Assembly (NCBI GenBank): GCA_023667365.1
Contig: JAMPAG010000010.1
Span: forward strand, 1 to 55,316
Direction of reading: 5' to 3'
DNA from: a bacterium
GTDB lineage: Bacteria > Bacillota > Clostridia > Lachnospirales > Lachnospiraceae
Length of the DNA: 55,316 nucleotides
Part shown: positions 17,660-55,316 of the stretch, one piece after another
Numbering within the stretch: position 1 is the stretch's first letter
How the letters are laid out: each line of letters starts with the position of its first letter
The notes under the pieces: generated by a model
The model's database searches: none
What the model was told of the DNA's origin: nothing
What the model saw: the letters and a program-made list of their open reading frames with translations, nothing else
Program-made: the position numbers and the translations under genes

Positions 17660-17887
17660 ATGAAAGAATTGGTAGAAGTCATTGCAAAGGCACTTGTGGA
17701 TTATCCCGATGAAGTGGTAGTCACGGAGAAAGAAAACGGCAGAAATGTGACCGTTGAGCTTCATGTTGCGCCTGCCGATATGGGGAAAGTCATCGGCAAA
17801 CAGGGTCGCATTGCAAAAGCGATCCGGTCAGTGGTAAAGGCGGCGTCTTCAAAGGATAATAAGCGCGTGGATGTAGAAATTGTATAA
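17660..17887 (+). CDS. khpA: KH-domain RNA-binding protein KhpA (YlqC)
   Basis: A 75-residue single KH domain with the GxxG loop VIGKQGRIAKAIRSVV. In Firmicutes this small protein pairs with KhpB to bind RNA and affects cell division and envelope growth. ATG 17660 is 6 bases after GGAGG (17649-17653); an ATG at 17657 is too close. The stop codon is followed directly by the first intergenic hairpin repeat. Confidence 0.95.
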   Translation: MKELVEVIAKALVDYPDEVVVTEKENGRNVTVELHVAPADMGKVIGKQGRIAKAIRSVVKAASSKDNKRVDVEIV

Positions 17888-17987
17888 AAAAGAGTTTCGC
17901 TTGCGCGAAACTCTTTCGAAGAAATGCCGCAGGCATTTCTTTTGGAATCGCAAGCGATTCTTCTGGGGTTGCAAAATTTCCTATAGC
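17885..17987 (+). repeat. Paired-hairpin intergenic repeat, copy 1
   Basis: Starts at the khpA stop codon. Hairpin 1 is AAAGAGTTTCGC/GCGAAACTCTTT (17889-17916, 12 bp, TTGC loop). Hairpin 2 is AAGAAATGCC/GGCATTTCTT (17919-17941). An extra third hairpin is GAATCG/CGATTC (17945-17960). The tail is TTCTGGGG...AAATTTCCTATAG. The unit belongs to a family with copies at 17990, 18688, 27070, 38001, 39590, 42505 and 55247. Hairpin 1 is followed by CTTTCG rather than a long T-run, so it is at best a weak terminator. Confidence 0.85.
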
Positions 17988-17989
17988 TT

Positions 17990-18052
17990 AAAAAAGAGTT
18001 TCACTTGCGCGAAACTCTTTCAAAGAAATGCCGCAGGCATTTCTTTCGGGTT
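17990..18052 (+). repeat. Paired-hairpin intergenic repeat, copy 2 (tandem with copy 1)
   Basis: A second unit directly after the first. Hairpin 1 is AAAGAGTTTCAC/GCGAAACTCTTT (17993-18020, one mismatch) and hairpin 2 is AAAGAAATGCC/GGCATTTCTTT (18022-18046). Its tail is TTCGGG, close to the CCGGG that follows hairpin 2 elsewhere. Confidence 0.85.
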
Positions 18053-18060
18053 ATGAAATG

Positions 18061-18102
18061 AAACAGCGGTCTTTCTTTTTTGAAGATAAGACCGCTGTTT
18101 TT
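18061..18102 (+). terminator. Rho-independent terminator before rimM
   Basis: AAACAGCGGTCTT (18061-18073) pairs exactly with AAGACCGCTGTTT (18088-18100), followed by more T. It separates khpA from rimM, so rimM probably has its own promoter; TATAGT at 18116-18121 is a possible -10 box without a clear -35. Confidence 0.8.
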
Positions 18103-18160
18103 CAAAAATCCCCTGTATAGTAAAAGAGTGCAAAGGGGAAAAGCAATAAGGAGCGGCAAA

Positions 18161-18688
18161 ATGACGGACAGGGAAGAAGAGTTATTCAGAGTGGGATGCG
18201 TGGCGACGACGCACGGCGTACGCGGGGAAGTGAAGGTGTATCCGACAACGGAGGAGCCGCAGCGCTTTAAGAAATATAAGGAAGTCCTGGTGAAAGATCC
18301 GCAGGGGCGGCGGCAGGAACGCAGTATGCAGATTGAAAGCGTCAAGTTTTTTAAGCAGATGGTCATCCTGAAACTCAGGGAATGCGATACCATGGAAGAC
18401 GCGGAACTGCTGCGCGGCGCGGAACTGTATGTACCCAGAGAAAAGGCGGTCCCGCTGAAAGAAAACGAATATTACATTTCTGATCTGATCGGGATGCAGG
18501 TGGAGAGCGACGAGGGCGCATTGCTCGGCGTGCTGGATGATGTGATACAGACCGGCGCGAACGACGTATATGTCGTGAAGCAGGCGGACGGCAGGGAAAT
18601 CCTTCTTCCGGCGATCAAAGAATGCATCAGGCAGGTGGACGTGGAAGCGCGGCATATGGTAATCCATCTGATGCCGGGACTGGTGTGA
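18161..18688 (+). CDS. rimM: Ribosome maturation factor RimM
   Basis: A 175-residue RimM, which binds S19 and helps mature the 3' domain of 16S rRNA in the 30S head. The N-terminal barrel has FRVGCVATTHGVRGEVKVYP, a family hallmark. The C-terminal PRC-barrel has YYISDLIGMQVESDEGALLG and IKECIRQVDVEARHMVIHLMPGL. ATG 18161 is set by AAGGAG (18148-18153). It is next to trmD as usual, separated by a hairpin repeat. Confidence 0.96.
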   Translation: MTDREEELFRVGCVATTHGVRGEVKVYPTTEEPQRFKKYKEVLVKDPQGRRQERSMQIESVKFFKQMVILKLRECDTMEDAELLRGAELYVPREKAVPLKENEYYISDLIGMQVESDEGALLGVLDDVIQTGANDVYVVKQADGREILLPAIKECIRQVDVEARHMVIHLMPGLV

Positions 18689-18748
18689 TAAAAAAAGAGT
18701 TTGCGTTCCGCAAACTCTTTCGAAGAATCCGCTTTGCGGATTCTTCCA
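18688..18748 (+). repeat. Paired-hairpin intergenic repeat, copy 3
   Basis: Follows the rimM stop codon. Hairpin 1 is AAAGAGTTTGCG/CGCAAACTCTTT (18694-18720). Hairpin 2 is GAAGAATCCGC/GCGGATTCTTC (18722-18746). The stem tips differ from other copies, yet both strands change together, while the junction TTTCGAAGAA stays the same. Confidence 0.85.
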
Positions 18749-18787
18749 GACATTGGAAACTTTTTTGACGTGAAAAAGGATAAACAA

Positions 18788-19501
18788 ATGGACTTTCATA
18801 TCATGACATTATTTCCCGACATGGTGCGTGACGGCTTAAATACCAGCATTCTGGCGCGCGCCGTGCAGCGGGAGCTGATTTCGGTCAATACCTACAATAT
18901 CCGGGACTATACGACGGACAAACATAAAAAAGTGGACGATTACCCCTATGGCGGCGGCGCAGGTATGCTCATGCAGGCGCAGCCGGTTTATGACTGTTAT
19001 GCGGCGATCGTGGCGGCGCAGAGAACGAGACAGCGTATCCGCACGATCTATGTGACGCCGCAGGGGAAACGCTTTCATCAGGAGATGGCAAGGGAGCTTG
19101 CCGGCGAGGAACAGCTTATTTTTTTATGCGGGCATTATGAGGGTGTGGATGAGCGTGTGCTTACGGAGATCGTCACTGACTATATTTCCATCGGCGATTA
19201 TGTCTTAACGGGCGGCGAGCTTGCGGCAATGGTGATGGTGGACGCGATCGCGCGTCTGGTGCCGGGCGTGTTAAATAATCATGATTCGGCGGAGACGGAA
19301 TCGTTCACCGGTCATCTTTTGGAATATCCGCAGTACTCCCGGCCGGAAGTATGGCACGACAAGCGCGTGCCGGAAATCCTGTTAAGCGGCAATCACGCTA
19401 AGGTGGACGCATGGCGCTTCGAGCAGTCCATCGCGCGGACAAAGGAGCGCAGACCGGATCTGTACGAACGCTATCTGGCGGAGCATCCGGATCAGAAGTA
19501 A
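18788..19501 (+). CDS. trmD: tRNA (guanine-N1-)-methyltransferase TrmD
   Basis: A 237-residue SPOUT knot methyltransferase that makes m1G37 in tRNAs and so prevents +1 frameshifts. Visible motifs are MDFHIMTLFPDMV at the start, YGGGAGMLM (about 57-65), LCGHYEGVDERV (about 111-122) and SIGDYVLTGGELAAM (about 130-145, the cofactor knot). ATG 18788 has AAAAAGGA upstream; the frame opens earlier through the hairpin repeat and those starts have no support. Normally followed by rplS, here by a 2-kb insert. Confidence 0.96.
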   Translation: MDFHIMTLFPDMVRDGLNTSILARAVQRELISVNTYNIRDYTTDKHKKVDDYPYGGGAGMLMQAQPVYDCYAAIVAAQRTRQRIRTIYVTPQGKRFHQEMARELAGEEQLIFLCGHYEGVDERVLTEIVTDYISIGDYVLTGGELAAMVMVDAIARLVPGVLNNHDSAETESFTGHLLEYPQYSRPEVWHDKRVPEILLSGNHAKVDAWRFEQSIARTKERRPDLYERYLAEHPDQK

Positions 19502-19569
19502 GGGAAGGCGCAGGAAGCAGTGGGATAGAGCAGTACGACTGAAGACAGCGGGGGGATCATGATGTTGTC

Positions 19570-19956
19570 ATGTCTAGAACGATGAGTGTTATTTCTTTGG
19601 AAAGAACCCTGTATTTCCAAACAGATAAAACGTTTCGCAAGTACGAGCAGCTTATCAATAATCCCAATGCCGCGCTTTGTATCGACAATATGCAGATTGA
19701 AGGGAAGTGCACAGAGATCGGAAAGCCGGTAGAACATGAGGATTTCTGCGCCGCATATCAGGCGGCGTTCGCGGATTCTTTTCAGCGATATACCCTGTTA
19801 AAAAATGAACGGTTATTTGCATTGGAACCGACTTTTATTGAACGTTGGATTTATTTGAATGGCGTCCCCCACATACAGATATTTGATGTAAAAAATAGAA
19901 AATACCTATTGAAGCAATATTTGGAATCTTGTCGGATGATGCAAAAAGGGAGATGA
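19570..19956 (+). CDS. Pyridoxamine-phosphate-oxidase-like flavoprotein, N-terminally damaged
   Basis: The 128 residues RTMSVISLERTLYFQTDKTF...NPNAALCIDNMQIEG match the middle and end of small PNPOx-like split-barrel flavoproteins. The first barrel strands (about 20-30 residues before RTMS) are missing. The ribosome-binding-like GGGGG (19551-19555) is spaced for ATG 19559, which is in another frame. That frame reads DSGGIMMLSC, resembling the missing strand, and stops after 9 codons. This pattern fits a frameshift and deletion. The ORF could still be translated from ATG 19570 but probably gives a non-functional fragment. Confidence 0.5.
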   Translation: MSRTMSVISLERTLYFQTDKTFRKYEQLINNPNAALCIDNMQIEGKCTEIGKPVEHEDFCAAYQAAFADSFQRYTLLKNERLFALEPTFIERWIYLNGVPHIQIFDVKNRKYLLKQYLESCRMMQKGR

Positions 19957-19977
19957 GGTAATTCAAATTTTTATTCC

Positions 19978-20024
19978 AACTTTATTCCCAACATGTTATA
20001 ATCAAAAAAGTTGGGAATAAAGTT
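19978..20024. promoter_or_regulatory. 15-bp inverted repeat operator around the -10 box of the AlbA_2 gene
   Basis: AACTTTATTCCCAAC (19978-19992) and its exact complement GTTGGGAATAAAGTT (20010-20024) flank a TATAAT box at 19997-20002. A partial extra copy (TTATTCCAAC, 19971-19980) precedes it. A protein bound here would block RNA polymerase. The gene downstream encodes a winged-helix domain, so autoregulation is likely. The -35 box is poor. Confidence 0.75.
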
Positions 20025-20042
20025 ATAACAAGGAGCATGTCG

Positions 20043-21425
20043 ATGGATATAAAACAGATTGTGCTGGATTTATGCGCTATGAGCGATGAACAGGAATGGT
20101 TCGAATTTAAAGAAAATTGGTTTCAACCAGAAGCATTAGGAGAGTATGTTTCTGCATTATCGAATGCCGCAGCATTTCATTATAAAAAATATGCTTATTT
20201 TATATGGGGAGTAGAAAATGAGAATCATAAAATAGTTGGAACGACATTCAATCAATATTGCGATTACAATAAAGAACCTTATCAGAATTATCTGGCACGA
20301 AATCTTTCTCCAAGCCTGAACTTCTCTTTTGAGGAAATCCAGATTCGGCGGAAAAGAGTGATTGTGTTGGTAATACCTGCGGCTTTTGAGATACCTACTG
20401 CATTTAAGGAAAGGCGGTATATAAGGATTGGTTCATCTAAATGTAATATCAGAGATTATCCTAAGCGGGAAATAGAACTTTTCAAAATACTTGACGGGAG
20501 AACAGAAACCATAGAAACGATTCCGGCAAAATATCAGGAGCTTACTTTTCATAAATTGTTTGGATATTATGGATCAAAAGGAATTGTTCTCAATGACAAG
20601 ACGTTTGTAAAAAATTTAGGTCTGCGGAATGAGGAAGGACAATTTAATTTATTGGCGCAGCTACTTTCGGATGACTCTCATTTTCCGCTTCGGGTATCTA
20701 TATTTGAGGGGAAAACGAAAGGAACCAATCTGTTTTCAGTCAGAGAGTTTGGAAATAATTGCCTTTTGTATAGCTTGGACGAGTTATTACGATACGGAGA
20801 TGTGCTGAACATCATACAGACAGATGAAACAGACCGCGTTGTGGAAAGGAAAGAGGTGCCATTATTTGACAATAAGGCATTTCGGGAAGCAATCATCAAT
20901 GCCGTTTTGCATAACAAATGGGCAGAGGGAAATGAACCCATGATTTCTGTTTTTTCGGACAGGATAGAAATTTTGTCAAGAGGCGCTTTGCCGCCGGCGC
21001 AGACAATTGAAGGCTTCTATTCAGGGGAATCCGTACCTGTAAATGAAAAACTGTCGGAGATATTTTTACAATTGCATATAAGCGAAAAATCAGGACGAGG
21101 AGTTCCTAAAATAACGGAAATATATGGTAAAAAGGCATTCGTATTTAGAGAAAATTCAATTGTTGTAACGATACCGTTGAAAAAAATCAGAACGGTTGGA
21201 AATAAAGTTGGGGATAAAATGGGGAATAAAAAACCGTTAAATGCAAGGAGAAGGAAAATTTTGGCGGAAATGAGGGATAACCCCAATATAACGGCAGAGG
21301 AACTTCGTAAGACTTTGGAAATTAGTAAAACGGCAGTAGATAACAATATTTCATTTTTGCGTGAAAATGGTTATATTGAGAGGATTGGCTCAAAGAAGGC
21401 AGGATATTGGAATGTGTTGTTATAG
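20043..21425 (+). CDS. AlbA_2/ATP-binding transcriptional regulator-like protein
   Basis: A 460-residue protein of the Schlafen-AlbA_2 type. The N-terminal AlbA_2 domain (about 15-130) has EWFEFKENWF and YFIWGVENENHKIVG. The middle has a HATPase_c_4-like region (about 270-370) with FREAIINAVLHNKW, ILSRGALPP and EKSGRGVPKI. A linker VGNKVGDKMGNK leads to a C-terminal winged helix (about 400-455). I chose ATG 20043 because AGGAG at 20031-20035 is well spaced for it; ATG 20037 is only one base away. It is AT-richer than its neighbours, has its own promoter and operator, and splits trmD from rplS, so it was probably acquired. Confidence 0.82.
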   Translation: MDIKQIVLDLCAMSDEQEWFEFKENWFQPEALGEYVSALSNAAAFHYKKYAYFIWGVENENHKIVGTTFNQYCDYNKEPYQNYLARNLSPSLNFSFEEIQIRRKRVIVLVIPAAFEIPTAFKERRYIRIGSSKCNIRDYPKREIELFKILDGRTETIETIPAKYQELTFHKLFGYYGSKGIVLNDKTFVKNLGLRNEEGQFNLLAQLLSDDSHFPLRVSIFEGKTKGTNLFSVREFGNNCLLYSLDELLRYGDVLNIIQTDETDRVVERKEVPLFDNKAFREAIINAVLHNKWAEGNEPMISVFSDRIEILSRGALPPAQTIEGFYSGESVPVNEKLSEIFLQLHISEKSGRGVPKITEIYGKKAFVFRENSIVVTIPLKKIRTVGNKVGDKMGNKKPLNARRRKILAEMRDNPNITAEELRKTLEISKTAVDNNISFLRENGYIERIGSKKAGYWNVLL

Positions 21426-21459
21426 TAAACAGGACATAGCCCGCCTACACAAAAAACAC

Positions 21460-21488
21460 TTGCAATCGCCCGCATGTTATGGTAAACT
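21460..21488 (+). promoter_or_regulatory. Probable rplS promoter
   Basis: TTGCAA at 21460-21465 and TAAACT at 21483-21488, 17 bases apart. A leader of about 75 bases follows. The inserted regulator gene would otherwise cut rplS off from its usual operon, so a local promoter is expected. Confidence 0.5.
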
Positions 21489-21567
21489 ATGCACGTTGCA
21501 ATAAAAAGATGGTCCTCTGTTACACATTGTATTAAGAACATCCACGAATCGTAAGGAGAATAGAGAA

Positions 21568-21918
21568 ATGAACAACAGCATCATTAAGGAAATCGAAGAC
21601 GAGCAGTTAAAGAAAGAGGTTCCGCAGTTCAAGGTCGGCGACACCGTGCGCGTGTACGGCAAGATCAAAGAGGGAAACCGTGAGAGAATCCAGGTGTTTG
21701 AGGGAACGGTATTAAAGAAGCAGGGCGGAAGCAGCCGCGCGACTTTCACCGTGCGCAAGAATTCCAACGGAATCGGCGTAGAGAAGACCTGGCCGCTGCA
21801 TTCCCCGAACGTGGAGAAGGTAGAAGTCGTCCGCCCCGGTAAGGTCAGAAGAGCGAAACTGAATTATTTAAGAAACCGTGTCGGCAAGAAGGCAAAGGTC
21901 AAGGAGCTTGTAAAATAA
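21568..21918 (+). CDS. rplS: 50S ribosomal protein L19
   Basis: A 116-residue L19, located at the 30S-50S interface. It shows [48 protein letters not shown] and [20 protein letters not shown], all family hallmarks. ATG 21568 has GTAAGGAG upstream. The first signal peptidase gene follows closely. Confidence 0.98.
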
Positions 21919-21992
21919 AAAGCGGTGGATCAGGAGGGACAGATACAGTGGTATCCGTCCCTTTTTTCAACTGCTCAATAAAAGGAAAGAGC

Positions 21993-22574
21993 ATGTCCAG
22001 AAAAAAGGGATTACATTTTTATCAGAAAAAAAAGAAGCTGAATAAATCCGTGCTGCGGGAGTGCGCGACCGCGCTGTTCTATATGGCGGCGGCCGTTCTG
22101 CTTGCATTTGTGCTCGTTTACTGCATGGGGATCAAGACAAGCGTGATCGGGGACTCTATGAGCCCGACGCTGACGAACGGACAGGAAATTCTGATCAACC
22201 GGCTGATCTATTCGGTATCGACGCCCAAACGCGGCGATGTGATTGTTTTTTTGCCGAACGGAAACGAGAACGCGCATTACTATGTAAAGCGGGTGGTCGG
22301 GCTTCCGGGCGAGACCATCCAGATACGGAACGGACAGGTTTATATCGACGGAGAGCGCTACAGCGGCATGGCATACGATAAAATTTCCGATGCGGGAATC
22401 GCGGAGTATCCCGTCTCCATGGGAAAAAACGAATATTTTGTGCTGGGAGACAACGTGAACAGCAGCGAGGACAGCCGGTCAGCCAATATCGGCGTCGTAC
22501 ATGCGGACGACATCATCGGGAAAGCGTGGTTTCACATGAAAGGCGCGTATGAGGGCATGGGTTTTATCGAGTGA
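21993..22574 (+). CDS. lepB: Signal peptidase I (first copy)
   Basis: A 193-residue type I signal peptidase that cuts signal peptides from exported proteins. One N-terminal membrane helix (about 25-46) precedes the Ser-Lys catalytic pair: GDSMSPTL (S55) and YYVKRVVGLPGE (K99). The C-terminal box EYFVLGDNVNSSEDSR is present. ATG 21993 follows AAAGGAAAG; the open frame further upstream has no ribosome binding site. A second, divergent copy lies at 23570, with rbgA between them. Confidence 0.93.
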   Translation: MSRKKGLHFYQKKKKLNKSVLRECATALFYMAAAVLLAFVLVYCMGIKTSVIGDSMSPTLTNGQEILINRLIYSVSTPKRGDVIVFLPNGNENAHYYVKRVVGLPGETIQIRNGQVYIDGERYSGMAYDKISDAGIAEYPVSMGKNEYFVLGDNVNSSEDSRSANIGVVHADDIIGKAWFHMKGAYEGMGFIE

Positions 22575-22670
22575 CCAGCCGTCTGACATGGAATGAAATG
22601 CATAGGGTTATTGTGCCGCCTGTGATCTTTGACGCGATCGGCCGTCAGAAACAAAAATGAGGGTGAGAAA

Positions 22671-23525
22671 ATGAACGTACAGTGGTATCCCGGACATATG
22701 ACGAAGGCAAGGCGCATGATGCAGGAGGACATGAAGCTGATCGATCTTGTGATCGAGCTGGTGGACGCGCGGATTCCTTATAGCAGCCGCAATCCGGACA
22801 TTGACGCGCTTGCAGGCAATAAGATGCGCATCCTTTTGCTCAACAAGGCAGATCTTGCCGATGACAAAAAAAATAAGCTGTGGGCGCAATATTACCGTGA
22901 AAAAGGATGCTTTGTGCTGGAAATGAACAGCAAGACAAAGAGCGGTATGAAACAACTTGCCGGGCTTGTCAGAGAAGCGTGCCGGGAAAAAATAGAGCGC
23001 GACCGGTCAAGAGGGATCAAAAATCGTCCGATCCGCGCAATGGTCGTCGGCATTCCGAATGTCGGAAAGAGCACGTTCATCAACAGCTTTGTCGGTCAGA
23101 GCTGTACGAAAACGGGCAACCGCCCGGGCGTAACGAAGGGAAAGCAGTGGATCAAAGTGAATAAAGAGCTGGAGCTTTTAGATACGCCGGGCATTTTGTG
23201 GCCGAAATTCGAAGATCAGCTCGTGGGACAGCATCTTGCCTTCATCGGCTCCATCAATGACGAGATTCTGCAGACGGAGGAGCTTGCACTTTCCTTGATC
23301 GAGTTATTGCAAAAAGAATATCCGCAGGCAATGCAGGCGCGCTACCGGCTTGCAGAGGCGGCCGCGGATGCGCCTGCCGTGATGGAAGAGATCTGCAGAC
23401 GGCGGGGATGTTACAAAAAAGGAACGGAGCCGGACTACCATAAAGCGGCGGGATTACTGCTGGATGAGTTCAGAAATGGACTGATCGGCAAAATGACACT
23501 TGAAATTCCCATGAAATCATTCTAA
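22671..23525 (+). CDS. rbgA: Ribosome biogenesis GTPase RbgA (YlqF)
   Basis: A 284-residue circularly permuted GTPase needed late in 50S assembly. The motifs come in permuted order: NKADLAD (G4, about 61), then GIPNVGKSTFINSF (G1, about 127), RPGVTKGKQW (G2) and LDTPGILWPKF (G3, about 165). The N-terminus has the typical VQWYPGHMTKARR. ATG 22671 follows GAGGGTGAG. It belongs to the lepB-rbgA-rnhB run seen in many Firmicutes. Confidence 0.96.
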   Translation: MNVQWYPGHMTKARRMMQEDMKLIDLVIELVDARIPYSSRNPDIDALAGNKMRILLLNKADLADDKKNKLWAQYYREKGCFVLEMNSKTKSGMKQLAGLVREACREKIERDRSRGIKNRPIRAMVVGIPNVGKSTFINSFVGQSCTKTGNRPGVTKGKQWIKVNKELELLDTPGILWPKFEDQLVGQHLAFIGSINDEILQTEELALSLIELLQKEYPQAMQARYRLAEAAADAPAVMEEICRRRGCYKKGTEPDYHKAAGLLLDEFRNGLIGKMTLEIPMKSF

Positions 23526-23569
23526 TATAAGAGTAGATTGAATTGTCGATATGATAAATGAAATGATGG

Positions 23570-24187
23570 ATGACAGGCATGAAAGAGGAAGAAATCATAG
23601 AAAAGAAGAAAAACAGAAAAAAGCAGCGGGCGAAGGAGGAGGAAAAGCCCTTGACGCTCGGTCAGGAGATTTTGCAGATGAGCATCTATCTGCTGATCGT
23701 TTTATGCGTGACGTTTCTGTTGATTCATTATGTCGGGCAGCGAACCCGCGTGCAGGGAGACAGTATGCGCCCGACGCTGCATGACGGGGACAATCTGATG
23801 GTGGATAAGCTGTCGTACCGGTTTACGGAGCCGCAGCGCTATGACATCATTGTTTTTCCGTATGAACATAAAGCAAAAACGTATTATATCAAACGGATCA
23901 TCGGTCTGCCGGGCGAGCGCGTGCGCATCGATCAGGACGGGACGATCTATATTAACGGCGAGGTGCTGCATGAGAATTACGGCGCGGAGGTCATGCTCAA
24001 TCCGGGACGCGCGGCGTTAGAGATCACGCTGGGAGCGGATGAATATTTTGTGCTTGGCGATAACCGCAATAACAGTTCCGACAGCCGGGATCCATCCGTC
24101 GGCAATATTCACAGGGACCGCATTATCGGTAAAGCGTGGGTTCGCATTTGGCCGCTTTCGGACATTGGATTTTTGAAGCATCAGTAA
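23570..24187 (+). CDS. lepB: Signal peptidase I (second copy)
   Basis: A 205-residue signal peptidase I with a very basic cytosolic N-terminus, one membrane helix (about 36-56), GDSMRPTL (S65), YYIKRIIGLPGE (K108) and EYFVLGDNRNNSSDSRDPSVG. It differs clearly from the first copy, with a longer basic head and distinct loops. This suggests old paralogues with different substrate preference rather than a recent duplication. The start is uncertain: ATG 23570 and ATG 23579 both lack a good ribosome binding site. Confidence 0.92.
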   Translation: MTGMKEEEIIEKKKNRKKQRAKEEEKPLTLGQEILQMSIYLLIVLCVTFLLIHYVGQRTRVQGDSMRPTLHDGDNLMVDKLSYRFTEPQRYDIIVFPYEHKAKTYYIKRIIGLPGERVRIDQDGTIYINGEVLHENYGAEVMLNPGRAALEITLGADEYFVLGDNRNNSSDSRDPSVGNIHRDRIIGKAWVRIWPLSDIGFLKHQ

Positions 24188-24207
24188 AAATACCTTCAGA
24201 GGGAAAA

Positions 24208-24972: not shown

Positions 24973-24977
24973 GAAGC

Positions 24978-25015
24978 TGCACCGGTGATCGGCTATCTGT
25001 CCGGTCATCGGTGCA
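24978..25015 (+). other. Strong stem-loop between rnhB and the FliK-like gene
   Basis: TGCACCGGTGATCGG pairs with CCGGTCATCGGTGCA over 15 positions including two G-T pairs, with an 8-base loop. No T-run follows, so it may protect or process the message rather than end transcription. Confidence 0.65.
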
Positions 25016-25104
25016 AAGAAGGATGTCTGATAAACAGGACAGGGAAATCAAAGATATAAAAGAGTAGAAAGCAGGGATCGAAAAATGGGAAGGATGGTGA
25101 GGAT

Positions 25105-27072
25105 ATGAGCGTAAATCTGTCCGATTATGTGGGCGGCAGCAATACTGTCAGAGATACGTCCGGCGTGCGCGGCAGTGCGGATGTGCCGGGCGCGTCGAAC
25201 CGGGGCGCGCAGGAGCTGCCGCTGAAAGCGGGAGAGCAGCTTCGCGGTACCGTGGTGGAAGCGGACGCGGGTAAGGTCACGATCGAGACGAAGGATCACG
25301 GCGTATTTACGGCGCGTCTGGAAAACGGTATGCAGGTGAATAAGGGCGATGTCATGGATTTTGAGGTGCGCGGTATGCAGGGACGGCAGATCACGCTGAC
25401 GCCTCTTTATTCCAATATGAGCGTGGATTCCAGCGTGTTGAAAGCATTGCAGGCGGCGTCCCTGCCCGTGACGGACGCCCATGTGCGGATGGTAAACGAG
25501 ATGATGAGTCAGGGAATGGGAATTGACAGGCAGTCCCTTCACGGCATGGCGGGGCTGGTCGGGCAATATCAGACGGCATCCCCGGAGCTTCTCGTGCAGA
25601 TGAAGCAGCTCGGCATTCCCATCACGCAGGAGGGCGTGATGCAGATGGAGAGCTATCGGAATAATACAGCGCAGATCGTAAACGGTTTCGGCGAGGTCGG
25701 AGAGCAGTTTACCAGGCTGATGCGGGAAATGGCGGCAGGCGGAGAATATGAAGCGCTCGGAAAGCTCTTTACGGAGGCGGCGAAGCTGTTTGCCGAGGGG
25801 GAGCTTGCGGAAGGACTGAAGGGAATGCCGGGCGGTGCAGACGGCGCTTTGGGACAGACAGCGGGCAGTATGCAGGATGGAGTGGTGCGCCTCGTTTCAG
25901 GCGGCGTTCCGTCGGAAAACGGGGCGCAGACGGCCGCTTCGGACGGAACGGGGGCGGGCAGCGTGAACGGAGCGGGAGACGGTGCGCAAAGCCTCCCGGA
26001 CGGAGTTGTGCGTCTTGTATCGGACGGAAAGATGCCGGGAGAAGGAGAAAGCGGTGCAGACGGCATAAATGGAGCGGGGAACGGAGAAGCCGTATCCCAG
26101 ACCGCAAAGCCGCAGGAGGGTATGGCGCGCCTGATGGCGGACGGCAGCATGGTCGGTGAAAAAGGGACGCAGGCGGACGGTGTGAGCGGGATGCAGGCAG
26201 ACGGCGCGCAGAAGACCGCGATACAGAAAAACGCCGCGGACGGCGTAAGCGACGGGATACTGCGCGCCGAAGAAGGAGACGGCCGCACCGCCGCCGGCAG
26301 TGCGCGCGCGGATCATCAGCAGGATCTGTTTTCGGCATTTTTGAAAAGTCTTTCGGATGCATATGCAAAGCAGGGGGAAACGCCGCAGTTTTACCGCAGC
26401 GTGGGGCAGGAACTCTCTAAGCTGCTGGGCGATCCGCAGTTCGGCTCCTCGTTTCAGAATGCCATGATCCGAAAATGGCTCCTGACGCCGCAGGAAACGG
26501 CTTCAAAAGAGCAGGTTCAGGACCTGTACGAGACGGTGCTGCGTCAGACAGGGCAGTTAAAGCAGATGCTGGCGGATGCGGGCAGACAGGATTCTCCCGC
26601 CATGAAGAGCCTGCAGAATATGGAACGGGATGTGGAGTTTCTGAACGAATTAAACCAAAACTTCGCTTATGTCCAGCTTCCGCTGAAAATGAGCGGACAG
26701 CATACAAACGGCGACCTGTATGTCTATACGAACAAGAAAGGATTTGCGGGCAGGGACGGAGCGGTAACGGCATTTCTGCATCTTGGCATGGATCATCTTG
26801 GCGATATGGATATTTATGTCGCACTGCAAAACCAGAAAGTGAGTACCAAATTCTATCTGGAGGACGACTCGGTCATTGATTTTTTGGAAGCGCATATGGA
26901 CGAACTTGACAGGCGGCTTGGCGGAAAAGGGTATGTTGTAAAATCGGAGCTGCTGCGCAGGGACCATGAAGATGGCGGCAATGTCTTTGACCAGATGTTA
27001 AAAGACAGTAAAAATGCGGGTGCGGCGCCGCCGATTCTGTTGAGCAGACAGTCCTTTGACGCGCGTGCATAA
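25105..27072 (+). CDS. FliK-like (YlqG-type) protein
   Basis: 655 residues. The C-terminal domain (about 520-630) has LPLKMSGQHTNGDLYVYTNK and LHLGMDHLGDMDIYVAL, which match the Flg_hook/FliK C-terminal domain that switches type III export from hook to filament. The N-terminal part (about 35-110) is a small barrel-like region, followed by a helical part. A Gly/Asp/Ala-rich linker (about 240-400) has repeated MARLMADGSM and GVVRLVSDG-like units. The place after rnhB matches the Bacillus ylqG gene. No flagellar genes are in the window, so a flagellar role is unproven. ATG 25105 has GTGAGG upstream. Confidence 0.75.
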   Translation: MSVNLSDYVGGSNTVRDTSGVRGSADVPGASNRGAQELPLKAGEQLRGTVVEADAGKVTIETKDHGVFTARLENGMQVNKGDVMDFEVRGMQGRQITLTPLYSNMSVDSSVLKALQAASLPVTDAHVRMVNEMMSQGMGIDRQSLHGMAGLVGQYQTASPELLVQMKQLGIPITQEGVMQMESYRNNTAQIVNGFGEVGEQFTRLMREMAAGGEYEALGKLFTEAAKLFAEGELAEGLKGMPGGADGALGQTAGSMQDGVVRLVSGGVPSENGAQTAASDGTGAGSVNGAGDGAQSLPDGVVRLVSDGKMPGEGESGADGINGAGNGEAVSQTAKPQEGMARLMADGSMVGEKGTQADGVSGMQADGAQKTAIQKNAADGVSDGILRAEEGDGRTAAGSARADHQQDLFSAFLKSLSDAYAKQGETPQFYRSVGQELSKLLGDPQFGSSFQNAMIRKWLLTPQETASKEQVQDLYETVLRQTGQLKQMLADAGRQDSPAMKSLQNMERDVEFLNELNQNFAYVQLPLKMSGQHTNGDLYVYTNKKGFAGRDGAVTAFLHLGMDHLGDMDIYVALQNQKVSTKFYLEDDSVIDFLEAHMDELDRRLGGKGYVVKSELLRRDHEDGGNVFDQMLKDSKNAGAAPPILLSRQSFDARA

Positions 27073-27149
27073 AAAAAGAGTTTTGCTTGCGCAAAACTCT
27101 TTCGAAGAATCGTTGCACGATTCTTCCGGGGGCGGGAAATTCCTATAAG
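27070..27149 (+). repeat. Paired-hairpin intergenic repeat, copy 4
   Basis: Starts at the FliK-like stop codon. Hairpin 1 is AAAGAGTTTTGC/GCAAAACTCTTT (27075-27102). Hairpin 2 is GAAGAATCGT/ACGATTCTTC (27104-27126). The tail is CCGGGGGCGGGAAATTCCTATAAG. It is the most complete single copy. Confidence 0.87.
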
Positions 27150-27210
27150 TAAAAAAGGGTTTCCTGCGGAGCGCGTTTTTTCAGACTATGGTATGCGGGA
27201 GAAGAAAGGC

Positions 27211-28581: not shown

Positions 28582-28639
28582 AAGTGACAAGGCAAAAGCA
28601 GAAAAGAGAAAATAGGGAAAGGAGCAGAACAGGAGGATT

Positions 28640-37569: not shown

Positions 37570-38001
37570 ATGAAAAGTGATGATGCGGCAATGCTGCGCG
37601 AAGTCCAGAAGAACAGCAGCACAGCTTTGAAAGCGATTCAGGCGATTACGGAATATGTGGATAACGCAGAAATGTCAAGAATGCTGTTCGGGCAGAGCAA
37701 GATCATAGAAAATATCAGGAACCGGGCAGTGGAAAGCCTAATGGAAGGCGGCGAACAGGTGCGGCAGGAATCCATTGTCAGCCAGACGCTGGTATCGAGT
37801 TCTATTCACATGAATACGATGCTCAACACGAGCACAAGCCATATCGCAGAGCTGATGATCAAAAATCACCAAAAAGGCGTGACGGGGATGTGGCGCGCCA
37901 TGAACCGCTATGATACGGCAACGGACGCAAGTGTTGAGCTCGCGCAGGAACTGGCAGATTTTGAGGCGAGCTGCATCGAGCGGATGAGGCCTTATTTGTA
38001 A
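37570..38001 (+). CDS. Conserved-looking helical protein of unknown function
   Basis: 143 residues, apparently all helical, with no membrane segment. It has a run of helices such as LREVQKNSSTALKAIQAITE, HMNTMLNTSTSHIAELMIKN and SVELAQELADFEASCIERMR, reminiscent of a four-helix-bundle (ferritin-like) fold. His and Glu residues in helix positions (HMNTML, HIAEL) could bind metal, but the full ferritin ligand set is not evident. ATG 37570 has AAAGGA upstream and is preferred to GTG 37522, which would run through the structured leader. A hairpin repeat follows it. Confidence 0.6.
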   Translation: MKSDDAAMLREVQKNSSTALKAIQAITEYVDNAEMSRMLFGQSKIIENIRNRAVESLMEGGEQVRQESIVSQTLVSSSIHMNTMLNTSTSHIAELMIKNHQKGVTGMWRAMNRYDTATDASVELAQELADFEASCIERMRPYL

Positions 38002-38051
38002 AATCGTGCTTCGCACGCTTTCGAAGAATCTGCGAATCAGATTCTTCCGGG
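38001..38051 (+). repeat. Paired-hairpin intergenic repeat, copy 5 (diverged hairpin 1)
   Basis: Hairpin 1 is shortened to CGTGC/GCACG (38005-38017). Hairpin 2 is intact: GAAGAATCTG/CAGATTCTTC (38023-38047), with the same TTTCGAAGAA junction and CCGGG tail. It begins at the stop codon of the upstream gene. Confidence 0.8.
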
Positions 38052-38077
38052 ATGGGACGGAGAAGAAAAAAATGTTG

Positions 38078-39588: not shown

Positions 39589-39591
<3 letters not shown>

Positions 39592-39630
39592 AAAAGAGTT
39601 CCGCTTTCGTGAAACTCTTCCGGAAACTTG
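39589..39630 (+). repeat. Paired-hairpin intergenic repeat, copy 6 (hairpin 2 lost)
   Basis: Starts at the gdhA stop codon. Hairpin 1 is AAGAGTTCCGC with GTGAAACTCTT (39594-39619, two mismatches or wobbles). It joins directly to CCGGAAAC, the usual sequence after hairpin 2, as if the second hairpin had been deleted. Confidence 0.65.
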
Positions 39631-41010: not shown

Positions 41011-42507
41011 ATGAAACGAAATCCATTCAAAAGAGGGCTGTGTGTGTTCCTGGCGTTTTTGTGCCTAAGTAACGGATGCGGGAGGGATTCGAGCGGAACA
41101 GATGGTGACAGCGTTGAAAATACAGAGAGGGAAGTGACACTGACCTGGGTGTATTTTTCAGCCTATGGGGAAATCGCAGAGGAAACGCTTGCGGAACTGA
41201 ACAGGCTGTTACAGGAAAACTATCACTGCAATTTTACAGTGGCGCTTGAACCGATCGGAGTGGAAGAGGTACGGGATGTTACGGACTATAAGCGGCTCCT
41301 GCGGGAAAGATATGAGTCGAAAGAAGCAACGGACATTCTTTATACGGGTACATCCTATATGGGTGAGGTTCCTGCATACGATCAGGCGGTGCAGGACGGG
41401 ATGCTGCTTCCGCTGACTTCCATGCTTATGGAAACGGAAAGCGGGCAGCGGCTCTATCATGCTTTCAGTGAGGCGTATTGGACTACCATGCAGTATGAAG
41501 GGGACATTTACGGGTTCCGGACGGTGGACGAGCAGTTGGTTTATGACAGTGTATGGATGGCGAATCAGCGCTATGCGCCGGGATTTTCAGAAGGGAAGAC
41601 GTTTTCTTTATCGGATGTCAAGCCGGCGCTGGAGGAACTGGCGGCTGGGAATGCAGTGACTGCCGGAATTTGCGGTCTGTATGCAGATCCAACAGCGTTG
41701 TGCAGCATAGAGGGGTATTTTCCGGTATGTTATGGGTTTCCGGGTCTTTATTTTGTGCAGGAAAACGGACAGTTTCATGCGGTCAGCGCAGCGGAGGAGG
41801 AGCGGCTGACAGAGGATTGGAGGATTATCCGGGAGTGCAGGGAATTATGCGGTGATCTTTCTGCAGATCCCTTTCAGCAGTTTGTGAATGGGGAGTTTAT
41901 ATTTGCGATACAGTCCTGTAACTTAAAGAACTTATATGACGGAAGATTTTTATATAACACTGTTTTAACGGATGTCGGGGTGCTTTGTTCCAGACCGCAG
42001 GCAGCAATTTATGCGCTGAATGCCGTGACAGGGATCGCGTCGTGGTCGGAACATCCTGAGGAAGCGCTGGAATTTTTAGGCCTGGTTGCCACGGAGCCCG
42101 AATTGTCGAATCTGCTGACGTATGGAATCGAGGGGACGCATTATCAGGTCGATCCGGCGACCGGTCATCTTGTGATCGCACAGATCGGAGGTCTGGGTCC
42201 TTATGTACAGACAACCATAGCCAATAAGATGATCACGCTGCCGACAGAGCTGGAACCGGAAAATAAGACGGAGATCTACGCGGAGCGCAATGAGAGCGTC
42301 GCGTTCAGCCCGGAAGTATTATATGAACTCCATACCCTGTACAGCGATCCGGATATTATGGCAATTCTCGATATTTATGCGAAATATGGCGGGTTATGGG
42401 ATGGGGATTATGAGGACGTAGACCAGACGGTGGCGCAGCTTCAGCGGGAGCTTGAGGAAGCCGGGATAGAGGAAGTCTTAAATAAATTGAATCAATTGCT
42501 TCTATAA
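41011..42507 (+). CDS. Extracellular solute-binding lipoprotein
   Basis: A 498-residue lipoprotein with lipobox SNGC (about C24) and a family-1-like binding protein fold: TWVYFSAYGEIAEETLAELNRLL at the start, a middle YGFRTVDEQLVYDSVW and a late ITGIASWSEHPEEALEFLGL-type helix. It resembles sugar or oligosaccharide ABC binding proteins (DUF3502-like type), but the linked transporter is an ABC-2-like exporter without import permeases. So its role is unclear: it may have been recruited as a sensor. ATG 41011 follows CGGAGGTG; the longer frame overlaps the preceding gene and lacks support. Confidence 0.78.
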   Translation: MKRNPFKRGLCVFLAFLCLSNGCGRDSSGTDGDSVENTEREVTLTWVYFSAYGEIAEETLAELNRLLQENYHCNFTVALEPIGVEEVRDVTDYKRLLRERYESKEATDILYTGTSYMGEVPAYDQAVQDGMLLPLTSMLMETESGQRLYHAFSEAYWTTMQYEGDIYGFRTVDEQLVYDSVWMANQRYAPGFSEGKTFSLSDVKPALEELAAGNAVTAGICGLYADPTALCSIEGYFPVCYGFPGLYFVQENGQFHAVSAAEEERLTEDWRIIRECRELCGDLSADPFQQFVNGEFIFAIQSCNLKNLYDGRFLYNTVLTDVGVLCSRPQAAIYALNAVTGIASWSEHPEEALEFLGLVATEPELSNLLTYGIEGTHYQVDPATGHLVIAQIGGLGPYVQTTIANKMITLPTELEPENKTEIYAERNESVAFSPEVLYELHTLYSDPDIMAILDIYAKYGGLWDGDYEDVDQTVAQLQRELEEAGIEEVLNKLNQLLL

Positions 42508-42534
42508 AAAAGAGTTTCCGAAATTGCCTATAGA
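42505..42534 (+). repeat. Paired-hairpin repeat, copy 7 (remnant with both hairpins deleted)
   Basis: Right after the stop codon comes AAAAAAGAGTTT, the left end of the repeat. It is joined directly to CCGAAATTGCCTATAG, its right end. Only the two ends remain, showing the boundaries of the family. Confidence 0.6.
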
Positions 42535-52502: not shown

Positions 52503-52524
52503 TCGTGATTAAGGAGAGATACGA

Positions 52525-54810
52525 ATGATAGAAGGATTTGTGGTAGTCTGTCTTTTGCTGGCGGCGGCGCTGATGATCGGAATCGTGCTGCTCGGAAAAG
52601 TGAAAAATGTGGTCATGCCATCCATCCGCTTTCTGTTTGCGGCGGCGATTATAACGATTGTCGGTTATGTGGTAGCGGTCACATCTCCCAACCAGGGACT
52701 CGCGACGCTGGCGCACGGTCTTTATTTTGCGTTTACGGACTGGCTTGTGATCGCACTGATGTTATATGCGGAGAAATATACTGAGATCGCGCCGAAAAGC
52801 CCTGTTTTCAGAATTGTCATTTATGCGGCGGCGTCATTGGACACGGTATCCATGATCGTCAACACGTTTACTCATCATATTTTTACGGCGGAGCGCGCAG
52901 AGCTTTTCGGGGGTGAATCGTTTTATGCGGTTGCGGATAAGCACCTGATGTACCGCGTGCATCTGGCGATCGTGTATACGCTTGTCGTGATCGTCATGGC
53001 GATCCTGATCATGAAAGTAAAGCGGACATTAAAATTATATCGCAGAAAATATCGCATGATATTATATTCCTTCGTGTGCGTGCTGGCGGTCAATATCGGA
53101 TACCGCTTTACGGATTTTTCTTTGGATGTCTCTGTGATTGTGTACAGTGTTCTGGCAATTGCCATCTGTTATTTTTCCCTGTTTTATGTTCCTAAAAGTA
53201 TTGTAGTACGCCTGTTATCTTTTGTTGTGAGAGATATGGACGGCAGTATCATGTGCTTTGACCTAGAGGGAAAATGCGTTTATGCCAACCATATGGCGTA
53301 CCATCTGCTGCAGACGGAGGAAAAAGACGGGCGCGTTGAGATGGAGAAGTTTTTTGATGAGTGGCTCGCGGGAAGACAGGTCGAGGCACTTGAGGACCGG
53401 ACATGGAATGAAGAGCGTCTGATCGACGGGGAAGTCCGTTATTTTGAGTCGCAGTTTAAGCGCCTGTTGGATGAGGGGCAGAATTATATCGGTTGTTATT
53501 TTTCCATGCAGGACAGAACGGAAGAACTGCGAAAGATCGAATATGAGCGTTACCGTGCGACGCATGACGAACTGACCGGAATTTATAATAAGACCGGATT
53601 TTATGAAAAAGTCAGGGAAAAATTGAATCAGGAGCCGGATCGCAGACGTTATATGATCTGTTCCGACATTAAGGATTTCAAGCTGGTGAACAGTCTGTTC
53701 GGGCTGGAACAGGGCGACCGCATCTTAAAGCGGATCGCGGAAATTCTGCGCAAAGAAGCGCTGGAGGGAAGCGTTTACGGGCGCCTGAGCGCGGACCGCT
53801 TCGCGATCTGTGTTTACGAGGAGAATTTCAGGGAGTGGGTATTTAACGATTACATAAAGGAACTGGCAACGATGATGCCGAGCGCGGTTTACCGGATGCA
53901 CATTCATGTAGGGGTCTATCCGATCACGGATCCGGAGCTGGAAGTCAGCGTCATGTGCGACAGGGCGCATCTTGCCGTGCAGATGGTAAAAGATGATTAT
54001 CAGAAGGTCGTTGTTTATTACGATGATGCGTTGAGCGATACGATGCAGCATGAGAGAAAGCTGATCGGAGAGTTTGACGCGGCAGTCAGCGGAGGGCAGT
54101 TCACGATCTTTGTCCAGCCGCAGATCGCAAGGACGGGCGAGCTTCTCGGCGGGGAGGCGCTGGTTCGGTGGAATCATCCGCAGAGGGGGATGGTGCCGCC
54201 CGGCGAGTTTATACCGGTGTTCGAGCGGACGGGCTTTATCCATAAGCTTGACCGCTATGTGTGGGAACTTGCCTGTGCGCAGTTAAAGCGCTGGAAGGAG
54301 CAGGGCAGGGACGATCTGCATCTTTCCGTCAATATTTCCCCGAAGGATTTTTATAACGTAGACATTTATGAGACGTTTACGGGACTGGTGGAACAGTATG
54401 AGATCGATCCGAAGAATCTGAAATTAGAGATTACCGAGACGGCGATCATGGAGGGATTAAAGCAGCAGCTTTCCCTGTTGGAGCAGCTGCGGGCATACGG
54501 CTTTGCGATAGAGATCGACGACTTTGGAAGTGGGTATTCTTCTTTGAATACGCTGAAAGACATTGCGGTTGACGTGGTAAAGCTGGATATGGGCTTTTTG
54601 AGCGAGACGGAGCACAGCGACCGAAGCAGAACGATCATGAACGCCATGATCTCCATGTCCAAGCAGCTGGGGCTTTCCGTTGTCGCAGAGGGAGTTGAGA
54701 CAGAGGAGCAGGTGGCGTATCTGACAAACGCGGGATGCGATATTTTCCAGGGCTATTATTTCTCAAAACCGATCAGGATCAGTGAGTTTGAGGAAAAGTA
54801 CGGTATATAA
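52525..54810 (+). CDS. Membrane GGDEF(degenerate)-EAL cyclic-di-GMP phosphodiesterase
   Basis: 761 residues. The N-terminal half has about seven membrane helices (1-230), then a PAS-like segment (about 235-335, SIMCFDLEGKCVYANHM). The GGDEF domain (about 345-490) has DELTGIYNKTGFYEK, but its catalytic motif reads SADRF where GGDEF is needed (about 421-425), so it should not make cyclic di-GMP. The EAL domain (about 505-755) looks intact: GGEALVRW, VNISPKDF, LEITETAIME, IDDFGSGYSSL, VVAEGVETEEQ and FQGYYFSKP. So it is probably a membrane phosphodiesterase controlled by the outer helices and PAS part. AAGGAGAG precedes ATG 52525. Confidence 0.92.
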   Translation: MIEGFVVVCLLLAAALMIGIVLLGKVKNVVMPSIRFLFAAAIITIVGYVVAVTSPNQGLATLAHGLYFAFTDWLVIALMLYAEKYTEIAPKSPVFRIVIYAAASLDTVSMIVNTFTHHIFTAERAELFGGESFYAVADKHLMYRVHLAIVYTLVVIVMAILIMKVKRTLKLYRRKYRMILYSFVCVLAVNIGYRFTDFSLDVSVIVYSVLAIAICYFSLFYVPKSIVVRLLSFVVRDMDGSIMCFDLEGKCVYANHMAYHLLQTEEKDGRVEMEKFFDEWLAGRQVEALEDRTWNEERLIDGEVRYFESQFKRLLDEGQNYIGCYFSMQDRTEELRKIEYERYRATHDELTGIYNKTGFYEKVREKLNQEPDRRRYMICSDIKDFKLVNSLFGLEQGDRILKRIAEILRKEALEGSVYGRLSADRFAICVYEENFREWVFNDYIKELATMMPSAVYRMHIHVGVYPITDPELEVSVMCDRAHLAVQMVKDDYQKVVVYYDDALSDTMQHERKLIGEFDAAVSGGQFTIFVQPQIARTGELLGGEALVRWNHPQRGMVPPGEFIPVFERTGFIHKLDRYVWELACAQLKRWKEQGRDDLHLSVNISPKDFYNVDIYETFTGLVEQYEIDPKNLKLEITETAIMEGLKQQLSLLEQLRAYGFAIEIDDFGSGYSSLNTLKDIAVDVVKLDMGFLSETEHSDRSRTIMNAMISMSKQLGLSVVAEGVETEEQVAYLTNAGCDIFQGYYFSKPIRISEFEEKYGI

Positions 54811-54814
54811 AGAT

Positions 54815-54848
54815 AAAAAAGCATGTGTATCATAACACATGCTTTTTT
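54815..54848. terminator. Bidirectional terminator enclosing the repressor stop codon
   Basis: AAAAAAGCATGTGT pairs exactly with ACACATGCTTTTTT around ATCATA, giving A/T runs on both strands. The stop codon of the minus-strand repressor (54830-54832) lies in the loop, and its last codons are part of the stem. Confidence 0.9.
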
Positions 54849-55192
54849 AATGCCTCAAAGCTTTCTACACTGATGACATGTTCAATGCGGCAGGCGTCCT
54901 TAGTGGCGGTCTCCTCGGAAACACCGAGTTTACACAGCCAGGCAGAGATCATTTCATGGCGTTCATAGATCATTTCGGCAATCCTGCGTCCGGAGTCCGT
55001 CAGATAGATGAACCCGGCGTCCGTCACGGTAATATAGCGGTTGGTTCTTAGATTTTTCATCGCAATGCTGACACTGGATTTCTTAAAGCCAAGCTCGTTG
55101 GCAATGTCAACCGAACGTACAACGGGAAGCTTCTTACTTAAAATAAGAATGGTTTCCAGATAATTTTCTGCGGATTCATTTGTTACAAGCAT
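54830..55192 (-). CDS. DtxR/MntR-type metal-dependent repressor
   Basis: 120 residues on the minus strand. The N-terminal winged helix (about 1-65) has SAENYLETILILSKK, VVRSVDIANELGFKKSSVSIAMKNL (recognition helix) and a GFIYLTDSGRRIAEMI wing. The dimer domain (about 66-120) has YERHEMISAWLCKLGV and KDACRIEHVISVESFEAL, with the His and Glu residues that bind Mn or Fe in MntR/IdeR. It lacks the SH3-like third domain of DtxR, as in MntR. It probably represses metal-uptake genes outside the window. AAAGGAAG precedes the start at 55192. Confidence 0.87.
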   Translation of the reverse strand: MLVTNESAENYLETILILSKKLPVVRSVDIANELGFKKSSVSIAMKNLRTNRYITVTDAGFIYLTDSGRRIAEMIYERHEMISAWLCKLGVSEETATKDACRIEHVISVESFEALKKHVL

Positions 55193-55246
55193 ATTTCTTC
55201 CTTTCTCAGACCATTTTACAATGCGGCGGGTTTCGCGTTTTTTATT

Positions 55247-55316
55247 CTTATTAGGAAATCCCGTAAACCCGGAAGAATCGTGAAACGATTCTTCGAAAGA
55301 GTTTCGCGCAAGCGGA
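55247..55316 (-). repeat. Paired-hairpin intergenic repeat, copy 8 (minus strand, cut by window end)
   Basis: On the minus strand it reads hairpin 1 (GCGAAACTCTTT and part of the other arm), the TTTCGAAGAA junction, hairpin 2 (GAAGAATCGT/ACGATTCTTC, 55272-55294) and the tail CCGGG...GGGATTTCCTA. It lies upstream of the minus-strand repressor and would follow the stop codon of a minus-strand gene just outside the window. Confidence 0.8.

Follow-up and report, generated by a model that had tools for sequence, protein, structure and literature searches.

The window analysed here is a 55,316-nucleotide stretch that makes up contig C11 of the 128 contigs of a 3.29 Mb source genome, and eight places in it carry complete, partial or remnant copies of one short dispersed repeat, hereafter the unit, in which two hairpins mostly follow closely upon a stop codon. 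Placement of the genome in the Lachnospiraceae comes from the relatives of its TrmD protein, which is 91-93% identical to those of the Lachnospiraceae metagenome-assembled genomes SRR14411297_bin.3, UBA7050 and Mgla_MAG_36-bin_9. An earlier note on this DNA had listed seven copies and a remnant at 42505, all of which are present as described:

17885..17986, + strand: copy 1, two hairpins, at the TAA (17885-17887) of a KH-domain gene (called at 17657-17887; Pfam KH_KhpA-B); hairpin 1 17889-17916, C linker 17917, hairpin 2 17918-17942, tail to about 17986, with an additional hairpin at about 17945-17960
17987..18052, + strand: copy 2 (the 17990 copy), in tandem behind copy 1; hairpin 1 17993-18020, hairpin 2 18022-18046
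18686..18770, + strand: copy 3 (the 18688 copy), at the end of rimM (TGA 18686-18688, then TAA); hairpin 1 18694-18720, hairpin 2 18722-18746; trmD starts at 18788
27070..27151, + strand: copy 4, at a TAA that ends a gene encoding a FliK-type Flg_hook domain; hairpin 1 27075-27102, hairpin 2 27104-27126, tail AAATTCCTATAAG
37999..38070, + strand: copy 5 (the 38001 copy), at a TAA stop, of the short-stem type CGTGC/GCACG; hairpin 1 within 38001-38021, hairpin 2 38023-38047
39589..39625, + strand: copy 6, a single hairpin, at the TAA of a Glu/Leu/Phe/Val dehydrogenase gene
42505..42534, + strand: copy 7, a deletion remnant at a TAA stop, in which the start of hairpin 1 is fused to the tail (an A-run and GAGTTTC joined to CGAAATTGCCTATAG)
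55247..55316, - strand: copy 8; hairpin 2 55272-55294, hairpin 1 truncated by the contig end

The copies had been said to start at stop codons, on the coding strand of the preceding gene. This holds for six of the eight places, which begin at the stop of a co-directional gene call (17887, 27072, 38001, 39591 and 42507, all TAA, and 18688, a TGA followed by TAA); the 17990 copy stands second in a tandem pair, and any gene preceding the 55247 copy would lie beyond the contig end.

An Rfam search of the window returned only tRNA at the gathering score, with no match to the unit. Below threshold, the region 17850-18780 gave four matches, among them CRISPR-DR58 (E 0.015) and TD-2, the latter at 18671-18753 with 26.2 bits against a gathering score of 48.7 (E 0.17).

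Unit architecture and covariation of the stems

The unit is about 75-105 bp long and reads, 5' to 3' in the direction of the gene, T, about six A, hairpin 1, C, hairpin 2 and a tail near CGGGTTGnGAAATTTCCTATAAGTT. Each hairpin consists of a nearly constant frame around a variable stem, the frame being typically AAAGAG...CTCTTT in hairpin 1 and GAAGAA...TTCTTC or AAAGAA...TTCTTT in hairpin 2. In the source genome, the hairpin 1 stems fall into the types GAGTTTGCG, GAGTTTCGC, GACTTCCGC, GAGTTTCC, GGACGC and CGTGC, and those of hairpin 2 into TCGC, TCCGC, CTGCC, ATGCC and TTGC. Column make-up gives T-AAAAAA at the 5' end, preceded by near-random sequence (67 copies), and CCTATAA(GTT) on the 3' side (35 copies); CCTATAA with at most two mismatches lies within 45 nt after 38 of 60 second hairpins. 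The linker, described earlier as constant, is indeed shared, except that one of its bases varies. This base of C(G/A)AAGAA pairs with the 3' foot of hairpin 2, where A-U replaces G-C in 24 of 82 aligned matches.

The claim that the variable stem tips stay paired was borne out. To keep the test from being circular, only the linker word was used to select copies, and the arms were located through the constant frame words, which were found in 63 (hairpin 2) and 61 (hairpin 1) of 66 copies in the source genome. All four variable bases of hairpin 2 pair in 57/63 copies, whereas dealing the arms out among copies gives a mean of 10.7 (maximum 19); all five bases of hairpin 1 pair in 46/61, with a mean of 14.4 (maximum 23) after such dealing. 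Once identical arm pairs from the source genome and its four congeners (G001, G002, G003 and G004) were collapsed, pairing persisted in 12/21 for hairpin 2 (1.1 expected, maximum 6) and in 15/26 for hairpin 1 (1.2 expected, maximum 6). Among 82 model-aligned matches, 94.9% of 1477 cells pair (81.2% when shuffled), 12 of 19 pairs are changed on both sides (194 cells against 55.5), and the covariation score of 0.330 drops to 0.111 on shuffling and to no more than 0.066 on sliding. Since this alignment had been fitted to hairpin 2 and not to hairpin 1, and since its copies are related, the collapsed test and the ortholog comparison below carry more weight. RNAalifold on a MAFFT alignment bears on hairpin 2 only, being unsuited to hairpin 1. 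Both stems covary beyond chance.

Tandem arrays are an addition to the earlier description. There are 18 neighbouring pairs, of which 17 are spaced 73-104 nt apart and one 47 nt. An A-run of at least four A lies within 13 nt past the tail in 15/16 units with another unit behind them, in 12/22 others and in 12% of intergenic 13-mers. A second A-run as a part of every unit was rejected, only 12 of the 22 units without a follower having one; an earlier pooling had included tandem copies. The same counts are compatible with both the presence and the absence of a target duplication of the type left by DDE-type miniature inverted-repeat transposable elements; inspected by eye, the two ends of the unit do not form terminal inverted repeats. 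In the C84:43530 region of the source genome (locus L029), a third and further hairpins (GGAGTCAGCGAAGCGATTCTTCT) stand in tandem after hairpin 2; units may grow through added hairpins.

Abundance within one genus

Within the window alone, the 10-base linker with at most one mismatch gave 10 matches against 6.9 expected, a number that 18 of 100 shuffles reach. The linker there is thus at chance frequency, and the case rests on the whole unit and on genome counts. The core CTTTC(G/A)AAGAA occurs at 153 sites in the source genome, compared with 10 for the reversed control. The congeners gave 81 (control 9) in G004, 64 (5) in G003, 88 (13) in G001 and 87 (6) in G002; for an 11-base word, part of these sites will be chance and decayed copies will be missed, and the genus assemblies are incomplete (G001 98%, G002 93% and G003 90% complete). 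The word CTCTTTCGAAGAA with at most one mismatch has 100 sites in the source genome against 4 for the reversed pattern, and TCTTTCRAAGAA has 80 against 0. In 298 other Lachnospiraceae genomes, one per genus, the maximum for TCTTTCRAAGAA was 19 (G116, control 4), and many had a count not above their own control.

Model searches gave a concordant picture, with copy numbers that are lower bounds, since 68 (model R1) or 10 (model R2) candidates were scored per genome; pattern counts are therefore preferred. Model R1 matched in 5/5 genomes of the genus (at least 64-68 matches each) and in 1/56 other genomes, there with a single match (E 8e-4). Model R2 had at least 1-3 matches (E up to 1e-4, best 2.1e-7) in seven other-genus genomes among 397. 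Among the genomes searched, then, the repeat is abundant only in this one genus, at dozens to more than 100 copies per genome, with weak look-alikes elsewhere. As regards the genome, the expectation of the earlier note (tens to hundreds of copies, mostly at stops, with covariation beyond chance) agrees with what was found. Within the open-licence literature, no title or abstract opening describing this repeat was found, which is not proof of its being unpublished.

Other Lachnospiraceae genera have double-hairpin repeats of their own (L211 in G314, L212-L217 in G088 and L218-L224 in G292). These share the second hairpin AAGAATYGC...GCRATTCTT, with different first hairpins and tails, and the G314 repeat has a TTTTCCTATACACTGAAAAAGGG tail resembling that of the unit. 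The source genome has 54 sites of the AAGAATYGC...GCRATTCTT pattern; 11/298 genomes of other genera have it too, G088 with 17 sites and G292 with 20, and the reversed control gave none.

Position at gene ends

To relate copies to genes, 819,553 bases of the source genome were scanned, in stretches partly selected for holding copies, which yielded 70 copies. Genes were called with a home-made hexamer caller, whose starts are rough and whose stops, given a correct frame, are exact, and four copies overlapping a gene call were set aside. Of the 47 non-tandem copies with called neighbours, 41 lie behind a co-directional gene, and in 38 hairpin 1 starts within 5 nt of its stop. The usual junction is one in which the stop TAA is formed by the T and first two A of the unit. 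Among 641 gene ends, copies are borne by 36/285 ending in TAA, 2/235 in TGA and 0/121 in TAG. By type of gap, tandem gaps hold 29 of the non-tandem copies, convergent gaps 16 and divergent gaps 2, where gaps of at least 60 nt number 304, 40 and 60, respectively; convergent gaps thus hold 16/47 copies though they are only 40/404 of such gaps.

A sequence-free scan for two adjacent perfect hairpins (at least 8 and at least 7 pairs) beginning at most 13 nt from the stop's first base found them at 28/640 ends of the source genome and 21/570 congener ends (7/199, 3/76, 5/123 and 6/172 in G001-G004). In 77 stretches from other genera, defined by a TrmD at most 75% identical, none were found at 1162 ends, with genes called there by the codon model of the source genome.

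At C40:161706-161884 in the source genome, two convergent genes both end in units, which face each other with the reverse side toward the other gene.

Comparison between sister species

Occupancy of orthologous gene ends varies. Among 325 ortholog pairs of 128 genes of the source genome, both ends carry a unit in 11, only the source genome in 29, only the relative in 11 and neither in 274, decayed copies being treated as absent in this count. At the KH-gene site, degraded forms persist in G001 and G002 and a partial form in G004. The rimM-trmD gap has no unit in G001 and G004 and a one-hairpin form in G002, and the 27070 copy is missing in G001. Some of the empty sites look clean. At the 38001 site, TAA is followed directly by AAAATATTGTATACATG in G001, and by the unit and then AAAAATGTTGTATACATG in the source genome. 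A TAA followed by at least three A stands at 14 of the 29 linker-less relative ends orthologous to unit-bearing ends, compared with 19/276 in the background; some of the 14 may be remnants. Such empty sites would be expected of an A-run target and just as much of loss between A-runs. Nine of the 29 relative ends have TGA or TAG as their stop; there the TAA may have come or gone together with the unit.

The earlier suggestion of a small mobile element thus finds backing in this variable presence and stops short at its direction, insertion and loss between flanking A-runs looking alike. The parE-like site, where G001 has two units and G003 one that matches the second of G001, is likewise open to gain or loss (the labels pnp, parE and asnS were assigned by eye, without a family search). 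At the asnS-like site, G002 has a unit and a terminator and G003 the terminator only. Insertion into pre-existing plain terminators was considered and set aside: by the rule used, only four ends of the source genome carry a plain stop-anchored A-run, hairpin and T-run, and deletion between hairpins could leave an identical picture.

Where a site is shared, the frame and the stop are kept and the stems are mostly replaced wholesale. The first six bases of hairpin 1 are alike in 0/10 pairs of the source genome and a relative, against 24.0% of 1711 paralog pairs within the source genome, and hairpin 2 is alike in 1/10 against 16.2%, ten pairs being few. After the pnp-like gene, for example, the hairpin 1 stems are GAGTTTCGC in the source genome, GATTGGCGC in G001, GATTTGCGC in G002, GAACGC in G003 (with another second half) and GACCGC in G004. 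Copies within the source genome are therefore more often alike than copies behind the same gene in sister species, which points to recent spread or conversion within each genome; copies appear to spread or be rewritten there. Some pairs of relatives are alike (2/12 for hairpin 1 and 4/12 for hairpin 2; for instance, G001 and G003 after the C40 gene that ends at 248259); vertical descent is thus seen as well.

This pattern bears on how the matched stem changes arise. Instead of selection on RNA, processes at the DNA level (template switching, arm inversion or conversion between copies) could have produced them, an explanation that is compatible with others and that we regard as a real though minority possibility. 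In its favour, shared sites differ in whole stems and not in single pairs, and the loops of one stem occur in both orientations (TCGC with TTC in two copies, GAA in two, TTT in four and AAA in one). Alone, however, it would explain neither the position and orientation of the unit nor its conserved frame.

Loop orientation also differs between orthologs. At the orthologs of C40:276490-278412 and C40:246532-248259 in G001 (C12) and G003 (C2), the second hairpins carry the loop in flipped form, AAA versus TTT; the stem is unchanged at the former, and at the latter one of its pairs is broken in G003. A flip of this kind is what inversion between the arms would leave.

A putative one-way transcription barrier

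Tails were measured in 57 two-hairpin copies; the T count began at the base next to the stem core, and the A/T foot was assigned to the tail whichever way the hairpin was read. Hairpin 1 runs into UUUC when read with the gene and into about six U in reverse. The 8 nt after hairpin 1 hold 3.02 T forward (range 2-4) and 6.26 in reverse (range 2-8), and the reverse tail score exceeds the forward one in 56/57 copies (means 4.35 and 2.46). For comparison, 38 hairpins at gene ends without a unit have a median of 2.87 and an upper quartile of 4.24. By the rule of a GC-rich stem followed at once by a T-run, hairpin 1 fails as an intrinsic terminator in the forward direction and is a predicted terminator, by its sequence, on the reverse strand. 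The earlier remark that hairpin 1 lacks a proper T-run is thus right for the forward strand and wrong for the reverse, and its corollary, that simple forward termination does not account for the unit, agrees with these tails.

Forward transcription appears to pass the unit. The copy in the rimM-trmD gap stands 41 nt ahead of trmD, and of 36 copies (tandem ones included) with a co-directional gene call downstream, 12 end within 100 nt of that call, gene starts being rough; this argues for passage unless promoters lie between. At the opposing genes of convergent pairs (n = 21), the reverse hairpin 1 is the sole terminator-like hairpin found for 9.

From the asymmetry of the T-run, the stop-adjacent position, the paired stems, the enrichment in convergent gaps, the apparent forward passage and the opposing genes, we infer, with somewhat less than even confidence, that the unit is a one-way transcription barrier, which would stop antisense RNA polymerase at the 3' end of a gene and let the gene's own (operon) transcript through. 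An antisense polymerase would meet the reverse-strand hairpin 1 followed by about six U and terminate. In the forward direction, the terminating ribosome and the broken U-run (UUUC) would keep the way open; in Escherichia coli, according to PMC4824070, a terminator 5 bp past a stop codon falls from about 90% to below 10% efficiency owing to ribosomes. The hairpins may in addition protect mRNA 3' ends.

Several observations weigh against such a barrier. Another terminator is present for 4/21 opposing genes, and 8/21 have neither a unit nor another terminator by the rule used. Short-stem copies (CGTGC, GGACGC) score poorly as terminators, and a simple terminator scan of 15000-34000 flagged no copy on either strand; we think that the scan counted the A/T foot into the stem, which uses up the T-run. 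Nine of the 47 non-tandem copies are not at a co-directional stop. The preference for TAA is unneeded for a functional site and points to how copies arise. Lastly, a barrier leaves the conservation of hairpin 2 and the tail unexplained: hairpin 2, with tail scores of 0.60 forward and 0.05 in reverse, has no T-run either way, and protection of RNA ends, a protein site or a part in the spread of the unit are candidate roles for it.

Retention of two hairpins is accounted for if the unit is instead a stabiliser of mRNA 3' ends, as proposed for repetitive extragenic palindromic (REP) sequences and bacterial interspersed mosaic elements (BIMEs), with a stop-adjacent hairpin blocking 3' exonucleases once transcription has terminated farther downstream and the reverse T-run a by-product of the A-run. 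The location directly past the stop and the orientation shared with the upstream gene (41/47) suit this role, as does the forward RNA of one copy, which is predicted to fold stably (-29.0 kcal/mol, 88 nt, 27068-27155; -30.2 for the reverse). We consider it rather unlikely, for it leaves the enrichment in convergent gaps and the near-constant reverse T-run unexplained.

A purely selfish or neutral small mobile element, inserting in the A-run of TAA and tolerated without a host function, seems less plausible still. It is consistent with the ends occupied in one genome only (29 and 11 of the 325 ortholog pairs), the tandem arrays, the stems common to copies of the source genome and the TAA-plus-A ends of relatives (14/29 against 19/276). 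Absence is over-counted, however, where decayed copies such as those at the KH-gene site in G001 and G002 are taken as absent; precise loss leaving A-runs would give identical empty sites; and a TAA target alone leaves 38/47 copies on stops in gene orientation unexplained. Nor was a transposase identified: Y1_Tnp (PF01797), the sole transposase family searched, has no match in G001, G002 and G003, three of the five genus genomes (incomplete assemblies), and partial matches in the other two, including fragments in the source genome. A search with one copy gave no phage match, and a search with one copy gave no plasmid match.

That the copies are ordinary forward intrinsic terminators of common ancestry is very improbable: their A-run, stem and T's look terminator-like, and plain bidirectional terminators, such as those behind the asnS-like gene in G001 and G003, have related stems, but the forward U-run is short (3.0 T in 8 nt, range 2-4), the forward tail score of hairpin 2 is 0.60 and copies lie inside gene runs such as rimM-trmD.

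Taken as a whole, the earlier interpretation is partly supported. The restriction to TAA, the reverse-strand T-run and the replacement of whole stems between species, which exceeds point-by-point compensation, go beyond it. A broader and more speculative proposal, which we hold to be doubtful, joins the one-way barrier to spread: gene ends in this genus would be occupied by self-spreading terminator cassettes, some agent inserting the unit at the A-run of TAA and rewriting its stems, so that each species has its own hairpin dialect in a universal frame and each copy acts as a one-way antisense valve. If this is true, a dispersed repeat would be pinned to stop codons with nearly single-base precision, its frame constant and its stems freely changing, which would make it a natural experiment on the evolution of hairpin populations in bacterial genomes without a recognised REP-associated tyrosine transposase (RAYT). 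Two questions would become accessible to experiment: whether bacteria use polar elements to shield the 3' ends of genes from antisense transcription, and how repeats spread or convert without a recognisable transposase.

Comparison with known systems

The best reading of the unit is a REP-like dispersed element that would act as a one-way terminator. REPs, BIMEs and REP doublets forming hairpins (REPINs) are short, high-copy extragenic palindromes downstream of genes, in convergent and unidirectional gaps, with some families species-specific, as described in PMC3733652; the unit, too, is a high-copy extragenic palindrome near gene 3' ends. GTAG REPs are intergenic, lie near gene 3' ends and often supply the TAG stop of flanking genes (PMC3733652). 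By contrast, the unit uses TAA, not TAG, has one preferred orientation to the upstream gene (41/47) and is built from two different hairpins in fixed order with a tail. It was not filed as a REP because the unpaired GTAG or CGTC tag is absent from the column make-up of its flanks (67 copies 5', 35 copies 3') and the Y1 transposase was not found in three of the five genomes. A RAYT-REP link was likewise rejected: the source genome has Y1_Tnp fragments, but three congeners with 64-88 anchor sites have none. Two copies about 1.3 kb from a Y1_Tnp fragment on contig C14 (L031) were judged a coincidence.

In IS200/IS605-type elements, a Y1 transposase acts on subterminal hairpins and a fixed left-flank target word. 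The unit differs from a palindromic miniature element of this type in that its left flank is near random before T-AA, besides the missing Y1_Tnp in three of five genomes. Its stems also recall DNA uptake sequences, repeated words that, as inverted repeats in terminators, form hairpins after genes; unlike in these, the stems of the unit vary within one genome and the frame is constant. Such uptake sequences are mentioned in PMC2267715.

The same paper covers bcr1 of the Bacillus cereus group (147-167 bp), Bant-1, Clop-1 and Clot-1, which resemble the unit as lineage-specific, intergenic, structured repeats, and bcr1 is called mobile-looking in the title of a paper cited there. In contrast to the unit, no stop-codon anchoring is reported for these families in that paper, from which the words 'stop codon' are absent. 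Bidirectional intrinsic terminators share the A-run, stem and T-run, and related stems occur in plain terminators of these genomes; in the unit, however, only UUUC is left of the forward T-run and a second hairpin comes next, and the dispersed copies share a whole frame and a tail.

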